Assembly (NCBI GenBank): GCA_030529365.1
Contig: JAUMXB010000015.1
Location: forward strand, 1-58,183
Origin: Cardiobacteriaceae bacterium
GTDB lineage: Bacteria > Pseudomonadota > Gammaproteobacteria > Cardiobacteriales > Cardiobacteriaceae
Length of the DNA stretch: 58,183 nucleotides
Direction: 5' to 3'
A model generated the notes under the pieces. The model made no database searches, was not told where the DNA came from, and worked only from the letters and a program-made list of their open reading frames with translations. Positions within the stretch are counted from its first letter, which is position 1; every line of letters starts with the position of its first letter. Below are positions 4,275 through 51,644 of this stretch, piece after piece. A program made the translations under genes and the position numbers.

Positions 4275-4372
4275 AAATACTCCAAATAAATAAAGGGTTT
4301 TGCCTCCAGACACCCGCAAGCACCAACCCGAAGCATGCTACGGGCACCCGGTGCGGCGTGATGGTGTCTGTG
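4275..4372 (-). promoter_or_regulatory. rpsB mRNA leader with a three-tier hairpin (candidate S2 autoregulatory element)
   Basis: Read on the minus strand, the DNA before rpsB folds into nested stems: CAGACACC/GGTGTCTG (4363-4370 with 4307-4314), GCACC/GGTGC (4350-4354 with 4320-4324) and CCCG/CGGG (4341-4344 with 4327-4330) around a 10-nt apical loop. Leaders of rpsB in gammaproteobacteria are known to bind S2 and repress rpsB-tsf. The position and nested shape fit that class, but homology to the described element has not been tested. A ribosome site (GGAG) follows the structure. Confidence 0.6.
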
Positions 4373-4441
4373 TGTTGTCTTGCCTTATCGGCGGGGGCTT
4401 TATACCATAGTCGCCCTTTTTTACCAACCGCTATTTGCCTC

Positions 4442-5252: not shown

Positions 5253-5334
5253 AAATAGTATATTTTTACCAATTATAAGCGCTTGTCTTGAGAAAATTTA
5301 TCACTGCAAGCGCTTATGGTTGAGAAAATTTACC
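5253..5334. repeat. AAGCGCTT palindromic repeat, copy 2 (paired cores)
   Basis: Cores at 5277-5284 and 5308-5315, 31 bp apart start to start, surrounding a GAGAAAATTTATC palindrome. It fills most of the 224-bp gap between map and the next gene. Confidence 0.85.
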
Positions 5335-5460
5335 ATCCCCTTAAACTACCTTGCAAAACCCTTCCCCGCCCTGCCCCGGCAAAAACACGCAGCAAAGCAC
5401 AACATCAGCCTGTATCAATGCACAACCGAGCAGGTATAATCGCCGCTTTGCCAAAACTGC

Positions 5461-49966: not shown

Positions 49967-51181
49967 ATGGGAATCAGAGATTGTCGCGTGCTGCTGCTGG
50001 AGGGCATACACCCCAATGCCGCAGCATTGTTTGCCGGGGAAGGTTTTCACCAGGTACGGGTGGAAAGCGCCGCACTTGACGGAGAAGCACTGACCCGTGC
50101 CTTAAGCGAGGCCGATATCGTCGGCATCCGTTCCCGCACCCATTTGACTGCCGACGTTCTCGCCCGCGCGCCACACCTGAAAACCATCGGCTGCTTCTGC
50201 ATCGGCACCAATCAGGTGGATCTGGATGCGGCCGCCCGACACGGCATTCCCGTATTCAACGCGCCTTTTTCCAATACCCGCTCCGTGGCCGAACTGGTCA
50301 TCGCACAAATCATCTCCCTGCTGCGCGGCATGACGGACAAGAGCCACTGCGTCCATACCGGCAGCTGGCCGAAGCGCGCCAAAGGCTCCTTTGAGGCGCG
50401 GGGCAAAACGCTCGGCATCATCGGCTATGGCAATATCGGTGCCCAGCTTTCCGTGCTTGCGGAGGGCTTGGGCATGCGCGTCATCTATTATGATGTGCTG
50501 ACCAAATTGCCACTGGGCAATGCCGAGCCAGTGCTTGCCATGAGCGATCTGCTGGCGCGTGCTGATGTCGTCACCCTGCATGTGCCGCAATTGCCATCCA
50601 CGAAAAACATGATCGGCGCACGCGAGCTGGCGCAGATGAAGCCAGGCTCCGTGCTCATCAATGCCGCACGCGGCCATTGCGTGGATATCCCGGCGCTTGC
50701 TGCTGCCTTGCGCAGCGGGCATCTGATGGGCGCTGCGCTCGACGTCTTCCCGGAAGAACCGGCCAATACTGACGAAGCGCTTGATTGCGAGCTGCGTGGC
50801 ATGGCCAACGTCATCCTCACGCCGCATATCGGTGGTTCCACCGAAGAAGCGCAAGCCAATATCGGCCTGGAAGTCGCGGAAAAGATGCTCAGCTATCTTT
50901 TGCGCGGAACGACGAGCGGAGCCGTCAATTTCCCGGAAGTCAGCCTGCCGCGCCAGCCGGGCACGCATCGCCTTGTGCATATCCATCACAACCAGCCTGG
51001 CGTGCTCTCCGCTGTCAACCAGATGTTTGCCGCCAAGGGAATCAACATCACGGCACAAACCCTGATGACTCGCGGAGAAATCGGCTATCTCCTCATGGAT
51101 GTGGATGACAGCAACGCACAAGTAGCGCTGGAAAATATCCGCCAGATAGACGGCACCATCCGCGTACGATTGCTGGGTTAA
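49967..51181 (+). CDS. serA: D-3-phosphoglycerate dehydrogenase
   Basis: First enzyme of serine synthesis, 404 aa. It has the substrate- and NAD-binding domains (IGYGNIGAQLSVLAEGLGM, the Rossmann loop; NAARGHCVD; LTPHIGGSTEEAQ with the catalytic His) and a C-terminal ACT domain (LVHIHHNQPGVLSAVNQMFAAKGINITAQ) that mediates serine feedback. The start at 49967 has a GAGGAG site; an extension upstream to 49904 is not family-like. The length and ACT type match the E. coli enzyme. Confidence 0.96.
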   Translation: MGIRDCRVLLLEGIHPNAAALFAGEGFHQVRVESAALDGEALTRALSEADIVGIRSRTHLTADVLARAPHLKTIGCFCIGTNQVDLDAAARHGIPVFNAPFSNTRSVAELVIAQIISLLRGMTDKSHCVHTGSWPKRAKGSFEARGKTLGIIGYGNIGAQLSVLAEGLGMRVIYYDVLTKLPLGNAEPVLAMSDLLARADVVTLHVPQLPSTKNMIGARELAQMKPGSVLINAARGHCVDIPALAAALRSGHLMGAALDVFPEEPANTDEALDCELRGMANVILTPHIGGSTEEAQANIGLEVAEKMLSYLLRGTTSGAVNFPEVSLPRQPGTHRLVHIHHNQPGVLSAVNQMFAAKGINITAQTLMTRGEIGYLLMDVDDSNAQVALENIRQIDGTIRVRLLG

Positions 51182-51208
51182 CGGTGCAAAAATCGAAACA
51201 AGGTTTTT

Positions 51209-51225
51209 ATGCTGCATTGCAGCAT
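51209..51225. promoter_or_regulatory. Perfect palindrome sharing a 12-mer with the downstream promoter spacer
   Basis: ATGCTGCA-T-TGCAGCAT, an 8+1+8 perfect inverted repeat. Its right 12 bases GCATTGCAGCAT (51214-51225) recur exactly at 51321-51332 within the promoter spacer 107 bp downstream. There is no T-run, so it is not a terminator; a repressor operator pair is a possible reading. Confidence 0.5.
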
Positions 51226-51315
51226 AAGATTCAAAACCCGAGATTAAAGCGCAACAGTATGTTTAATATATAAAAAATATATGTGCAAAAAGTCACAAAA
51301 AGTTTTTATTTTTTC

Positions 51316-51344
51316 TTGACGCATTGCAGCATTGTCTCTATAAT
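51316..51344 (+). promoter_or_regulatory. Near-consensus sigma-70 promoter
   Basis: TTGACG (51316-51321), 17-bp spacer, TATAAT (51339-51344), followed by a GC-rich discriminator GCGCCCC. It resembles the tRNA promoters in this window (AATGCGCGCTC after the -10). Confidence 0.85.
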
Positions 51345-51350
51345 GCGCCC

Positions 51351-51427
51351 CAACATCATCGATGTTATCTCCTCTATATCCTCCTTTGGTGGTTGTTTGC
51401 CGGATCTTTGGATCCGGCATTTTTTTT
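51351..51427 (+). ncRNA. Candidate small RNA (~77 nt) with intrinsic terminator
   Basis: Transcription from the promoter at 51316-51344 would begin near 51351 and end at the T-run at 51420-51427. The predicted RNA starts with a hairpin AACATC-ATC-GATGTT (51352-51366), has a single-stranded pyrimidine-rich middle (CUCCUCU, AUCCUCCUUU) and ends in the terminator stem. The UCCUCCUU stretch is complementary to Shine-Dalgarno sequences, as in several regulatory sRNAs. There is no downstream gene on this strand, so it is not an mRNA leader. No known sRNA family is recognised. Confidence 0.6.
51399..51427 (+). terminator. Terminator of the candidate sRNA
   Basis: GCCGGATC (51399-51406) / GATCCGGC (51411-51418), TTTG loop, then A and eight T. 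Confidence 0.9.
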
Positions 51428-51644
51428 GCCCAAATATCGGAAGACGGACATCTGCATAAACAGCAAAAGCTGCCGACATCGGCAGAAACTGATCCAGAAA
51501 AGGCCGCGCGCATCGACAAAGCCAAGCGGGCTCTGCTGAATATGCAAAACAAGGTACAAATCGTAAGCCATGCACAAACAACAATGCTCGCCCTTCTCTG
51601 AACAGAAAGATTCATGCGCCGCGCTGCCTTGCCGCAAAGGCGCA

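Follow-up and report, generated by a model that had tools for sequence, protein, structure and literature searches.

What is encoded at 51316-51427, and what controls it? The window, i.e. the whole stretch of 58,183 nucleotides analysed here, carries this unit on its forward strand between a serA-like gene (same strand, ending at 51181) and the convergent DUF465 and glnA genes on the reverse strand. An earlier note had read it as a candidate small RNA with a possible operator pair; it overlooked a second anti-Shine-Dalgarno (anti-SD) stretch, CUCCUC, and did not identify the regulator. We propose with considerable confidence that 51316-51427 encodes a trans-acting anti-SD small RNA (sRNA), which would be repressed by PhaR (AniA), a protein known to sense stored carbon.

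A small RNA gene and its conservation

The unit begins with a sigma-70-type promoter at 51316-51344 (TTGACG at 51316-51321, TATAAT at 51339-51344), followed by a predicted RNA of about 77 nt at 51351-51427, whose start is placed from the promoter. The near-consensus promoter of the earlier note is correct to the letter, with 11 of 12 consensus bases and a 17-bp spacer; comparable sites number 2 in the sequence against 1.3 in shuffles, so the promoter alone is unremarkable. The RNA fold, unlike the promoter, is remarkable against chance: 51351-51427 reaches -23.5 kcal/mol (z -4.6), and none of 200 dinucleotide shuffles folded equally well. The predicted fold opens with a 5' hairpin, AACAUC-AUC-GAUGUU (51352-51366), and leaves anti-SD site 1, CUCCUC (CTCCTC in DNA, 51369-51374), single-stranded. 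Anti-SD site 2, UCCUCCUUU (TCCTCCTTT in DNA, 51379-51387), lies in the loop of a weak hairpin closed by GGUGG, and the intrinsic terminator at 51398-51427 has a 9-bp stem (51398-51419) and eight U. The stretch UCCUCCUU, first described as single-stranded, is not wholly so, since it can sit in this weak hairpin.

The decisive evidence for the feature is conservation. BLAST of 40 related genomes places the unit in 29: every one of the 12 Cardiobacteriaceae has it, as do 17 of the 18 genomes of f2, the sister family. It was not found in 2 genomes from other families of the order nor in 8 further genomes of the class. Named genomes scanned for exact matches to the core gave 22 stretches, from Cardiobacterium, Dichelobacter, Rappaport, Cardiobacteriaceae, Wohlfahrtiimonas, Ignatzschineria and one bin labelled Lysobacteraceae. 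Across the 12 Cardiobacteriaceae, the whole core and nearly all of the 5' hairpin are invariant and the terminator stem is variable. The sister-family counterpart of the 5' hairpin covaries: it is 100% paired, with 5 of its 9 pairs changed on both sides (11 distinct rows). The comparative alignment that the earlier note had proposed as a check favours its self-contained unit of hairpin and terminator between convergent genes, and the lack of the unit in close relatives, which it had named as counter-evidence, is not what we see. Anatomy, conservation and covariation can be read directly from the aligned genomes; on this comparative reading, we regard the feature as a genuine anti-SD sRNA gene that has been conserved, and we infer that the predicted RNA is transcribed.

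Two other readings of the stretch bear on this evidence. First, it might encode a small protein rather than a regulatory RNA, considering that an ATG-started frame of 79 aa (51362-51601) crosses the core and that Bordetella S17L also has a putative small ORF (PMC11722255). The sister family, however, does not keep this frame: its spacer from hairpin to core is one base shorter, and part of the family lacks the ATG; the terminator interrupts the frame, and the changes keep the hairpin. A coding role is therefore very unlikely and was dropped. Second, the position of the unit downstream of serA on the same strand would suit a leader or attenuator of a neighbouring gene, but the unit has its own promoter, a strong terminator and a convergent gene downstream, and flanking genes vary between the eight loci inspected. 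Because relatives have different neighbours, we take the unit to be a self-contained gene; a cis element is scarcely credible and was likewise set aside.

Likeness to known anti-SD RNAs

For each Rfam family that it resembles, the sRNA stays under the curated cut-off. At the gathering threshold, Rfam matched tRNAs and t44 alone in the whole window, the t44 RNA (RF00127) lying at 4297-4392 on the reverse strand with 52.9 bits. RF02278 (Betaproteobacteria_toxic_sRNA), which includes S17 of Bordetella, ncS03, ncS05, ncS27 and ncS62 of Burkholderia, and bdhR1, gives 35.5 bits (E 8.8e-6) against a gathering score of 50, which none of the 40 relatives reaches. The full model (positions 1-64) aligned, and its two-hairpin plan with two CU-rich anti-SD stretches is found here as a free CUCC site, a second anti-SD sequence in a GGUGG-closed loop and a terminator; the RNA here differs in a two-base insertion between the sites and in its additional 5' hairpin, which precedes the matched region. 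In S17, Site 1 is at the free 5' end and Site 2 in a loop, corresponding to CUCCUC and UCCUCCUUU, and S17 represses through ribosome sites of targets that include transporters and a sigma-54 activator (PMC11722255). The Burkholderia double-hairpin RNAs share the anti-SD likeness (PMC5688073).

MmgR of Sinorhizobium meliloti (alpha-r8; RF00519, suhB/mmgR) is also alike, with about 77 nt, three stem-loops, an anti-SD stretch and repression by PhaR/AniA through a promoter box (PMC12542648), and a PhaR-type promoter box is present here. MmgR is, however, alphaproteobacterial and also activated by NtrC (PMC7143759), whereas the sRNA here has two boxes about 107 bp apart; the RF00519 covariance score is 23.8 bits (E 0.0058), below the gathering score of 41. 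The sibling sRNAs NmsR/RcoF of Neisseria (RF02877) carry anti-SD sequences and repress TCA-cycle genes, but they form a tandem pair linked to the stringent response, and the excerpts describing them mention no PhaR; the NmsRb/RF02877 score here is 20.6 bits (E 0.4), the gathering score being 52. By likeness to S17, the Burkholderia double-hairpin RNAs and MmgR, the sRNA should mask ribosome sites, and the earlier suggestion that it does so in trans gains support from this likeness and from conservation. A literature search on small RNAs of Cardiobacterium found nothing relevant.

Second RF02278-like matches in the family belong to a different sRNA with Fur-box-like promoters. This second conserved Cardiobacteriaceae sRNA, at G000:C27:226683-226742 (L044) and at L045, L046, L047 and L053, has a TGTCWCATTGCCTCATGATGATTTGCCCC core and a terminator; with a promoter judged Fur-box-like by eye, it is likely an iron sRNA of the RyhB/NrrF type. 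In another gammaproteobacterial family, a possible RF02278-like RNA (G032:C219:1164-1225, L049; 30.7 bits) lies near an rplM-rpsI-like ribosomal-protein operon.

PhaR as the probable regulator, and the paired operators

Two putative operators flank and overlap the promoter: a perfect 21-bp palindrome, TTATGCTGCATTGCAGCATAA, at 51207-51227, and TTGACGCATTGCAGCAT at 51316-51332, where it spans the -35 hexamer and runs into the spacer. The 12-mer GCATTGCAGCAT, which the earlier note had placed in the promoter spacer and in the upstream palindrome, is indeed found at 51321-51332 and 51214-51225, exactly 107 bp apart. Both boxes are present in 9 of the 12 family genomes (a palindrome TGYTGC-N3-GCARCA upstream and GCNNNGCARCA at the promoter) and neither in the remaining three, which form genus g4 and include C. 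hominis and C. valvarum; none of the 18 f2 genomes has them. This joint occurrence bears out the operator pair of the earlier note as real. The dyad resembles a PhaR box, an idea that preceded the result of scanning for PF07879, the DNA-binding domain of PhaR. That domain occurs in 8 of the 9 box-bearing genomes, the exception (G008) being 72% complete, and was not found in the 3 box-less family genomes or in the 18 f2 genomes, which together include the other 20 sRNA-bearing relatives. The association of box and phaR, itself a matter of sequence counts, has a Fisher p of 0.018 in the family; over all 29 genomes with the sRNA it is 2.1e-6, and neither value is corrected for relatedness. In the genome of the window, phaR lies at G000:C24:13946-14119 (PF07879 E 1.8e-24) and its product combines the DNA-binding domain with PHB_acc; in one of three family PhaR proteins scanned, PHB_acc falls just below the cut-off.

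The published motif agrees with this assignment. The core of the S. meliloti PhaR motif is YGCRNYGCR, and PhaR binds the mmgR promoter efficiently in EMSA (PMC12542648); both sites here fit that core, the upstream palindrome through TGCATTGCA and the promoter site through CGCATTGCA. The two marks of a PhaR regulon, a YGCRNYGCR near the promoter and a phaR gene in the genome, are thus both found, PhaR is the best candidate regulator, and the sRNA is probably repressed by it. In several Cardiobacteriaceae (L070, L072, L073, L075, L076), phaR adjoins a speA-like arginine decarboxylase gene, named from its sequence. Three genomes, G014 (L074), G036 and G039, have phaR and no sRNA match in BLAST.

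The earlier note had suggested looping repression. The two sites either occur together (9 of 12) or are both absent (3 of 12), and the centre spacings in the nine genomes, 107, 109, 120, 118, 119, 118, 100, 121 and 121 bp, cluster on a 10.5-bp helical repeat (Rayleigh R 0.71, p 0.0072 with kinship ignored; p 0.029 with six genus means). Looping by the paired boxes is hence only suggested. The phaP1 and phaP2 promoters of the S. meliloti PhaR/AniA regulon likewise carry two palindromes each, but these closely flank the -35 (PMC12542648), whereas the boxes here are 100-121 bp apart. Searching for further operators, another proposal of that note, gave four exact copies of the 12-mer in the 2.3-Mb genome: two at the sRNA, one before the actP operon as part of a second operator pair, and one within a nagA-like ORF; a genome-wide regulon of the 12-mer was dropped. 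Strict palindromes number 42 in the 12 family genomes, a pattern that would miss weaker PhaR boxes; 8 are sRNA sites, 3 are actP sites (genus g1), and the 25 checked among the remaining 31 are all inside ORFs.

Do such boxes precede related RNAs elsewhere? RF02278-like RNAs occur in 64 of 274 genomes of the class at E up to 1e-4 (2 above the gathering score), and PhaR in 80 of the same 274. At the 63 class loci scored for YGCRNYGCR within 200 bp upstream, 8 of 19 in PhaR-bearing genomes have it against 3 of 44 in PhaR-less ones (p 0.0018); one of the latter three belongs to an incomplete genome (G241) from the same genus as the PhaR-bearing G118. A box matrix built from nothing but the 18 Cardiobacteriaceae sites, and controlled by shuffling each upstream region, matched 8 of 19 class loci in PhaR-bearing and 2 of 43 in PhaR-less genomes, 1 of 20 loci in f2 plus g4, and 9 of 17 new loci in a phylum-wide sample against 0.3 expected. 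In that sample, the model R1 matched 21 of 398 genomes, and the core occurs at 12 of 20 loci against 51 of 260 control windows (p 0.00019). Related genomes are non-independent samples in all these counts, and R1 matches are not independent proof of homology because R1 was built partly from RF02278 hits.

It could be argued that the sRNA is real and that some other regulator binds its dyad, in which case PhaR would be a bystander that disappeared along with the dyad. The core is missing within 200 bp upstream at 11 of the 19 class loci in PhaR-bearing genomes, the relatives are few and akin, and PhaR binding here is deduced from sequence likeness. Yet the dyad matches a PhaR core that was derived experimentally (PMC12542648), the boxes track phaR in distant families too, and the idea of PhaR had been set down before the PF07879 result. 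We judge another regulator improbable and keep PhaR as the probable repressor; given the 11 loci without a core match, its control of such RNAs would be frequent and not universal. A shared element, TATTAGAAAAT..CTTACATACTGATT, lies over the promoter at 23 of 44 PhaR-less class loci (e.g. L082, L085, L087, L088, L096, L104 and L105) against 4 of 19 PhaR-bearing ones, and at PhaR-less loci with this element another regulator may have replaced PhaR. Genomes G118, G254, G638 and G176 have two RF02278-like sRNA copies each, those of G176 being adjacent (G176:C83:5201-5261 and 5332-5393).

The ligand of PhaR is a further matter. The genome of the window has a PHB synthase domain (PF07167) beside a reductase that reads like PhaB. 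PF07167 was not found in seven PhaR-bearing relatives (G001, G002, G003, G005, G006, G007 and G010), although other synthase classes may escape the model; five of the seven are at least 93% complete, and the boxes are kept. It is possible, and we offer it tentatively, that repression of anti-SD sRNAs by PhaR, the carbon sensor, arose early and is widespread in Pseudomonadota, forming one circuit that takes in the 'toxic' RF02278 RNAs, MmgR and this RNA, and that in most Cardiobacteriaceae, with PHB synthase gone, PhaR survives mainly for this sRNA and with a non-PHB ligand. If so, the PhaR-MmgR link of Sinorhizobium would be a general circuit and not a rhizobial detail, and small bacteria in which no PHB synthase is detected, Dichelobacter and Rappaport among them, would be simple systems in which to look for this ligand. 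The consulted parts of PMC7011215 and PMC4603805 describe the RF02278 RNAs as having neither function nor signal assigned; if PhaR boxes do precede many of them, such boxes would be the input so far lacking and would connect these RNAs with carbon storage. Our literature search, which covered subscription journals little, found no PhaR-sRNA link outside alphaproteobacteria and no PhaR-RF02278 link, though the latter may exist in print. Term searches found no mention of PhaR in PMC11722255, PMC5688073 and PMC7011215; in PMC4603805 the matches to the term fell outside the RNA text, the one viewed being an affiliation. For PhaR in Dichelobacter, there was nothing among the matches listed.

Possible targets and mechanism

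Target prediction, also proposed earlier, yields candidates that point weakly to transport and metabolism. The sequence TAGAGGAG precedes an ATG 11 times in the genome of the window, the reversed control doing so 7 times, and the genes concerned include the actP operon and those for a peptide ABC binding protein, a TAXI-type binding protein and a predicted membrane transporter; elsewhere it precedes gdhA in C. hominis and gltA in G005. These names come from inspection of the sequences rather than a family search. Only actP (acetate symporter) combines a PhaR box pair with an 11-nt match to site 1, and it does so in genus g1 alone; actP of G003 and G005 has neither. Duplex energies as strong as that of own-genome actP are reached by 1 of 26 window ORFs with SD-like sites, as strong as that of the sister-species orthologue by 9 of 26, and as strong as those of the other candidates by 3 to 7. 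Because these energies resemble those of ordinary SDs, we claim no target and treat the candidates as leads.

The same energies could mean that the RNA is a general anti-SD mimic that slows all translation rather than acting on chosen mRNAs; indeed, cloned RF02278 relatives inhibit growth of E. coli, and overexpressed ncS27 slows growth (PMC5688073). However, conservation here reaches well past UCCUCC, and repression by S17 needed specific pairing, S17S barely affecting E. coli growth (PMC11722255). A general mimic is thus unlikely, and most likely the PhaR-repressed sRNA masks the ribosome sites of transport and central-metabolism mRNAs.

We propose the following sequence of events. PhaR bound at both boxes would block RNA polymerase, perhaps through looping. 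Titration of PhaR, which in Sinorhizobium is due to stored PHB and here would be due to PHB or another ligand, would allow the sRNA to be made. CUCCUC and UCCUCCUUU would then pair with ribosome-binding sites, probably together with Hfq, and this pairing would reduce translation from genes for uptake and central metabolism. In the genus of the window, PhaR may control the actP operon both directly and through the sRNA, a dual control made possible by its two PhaR boxes and a ribosome site complementary to site 1.
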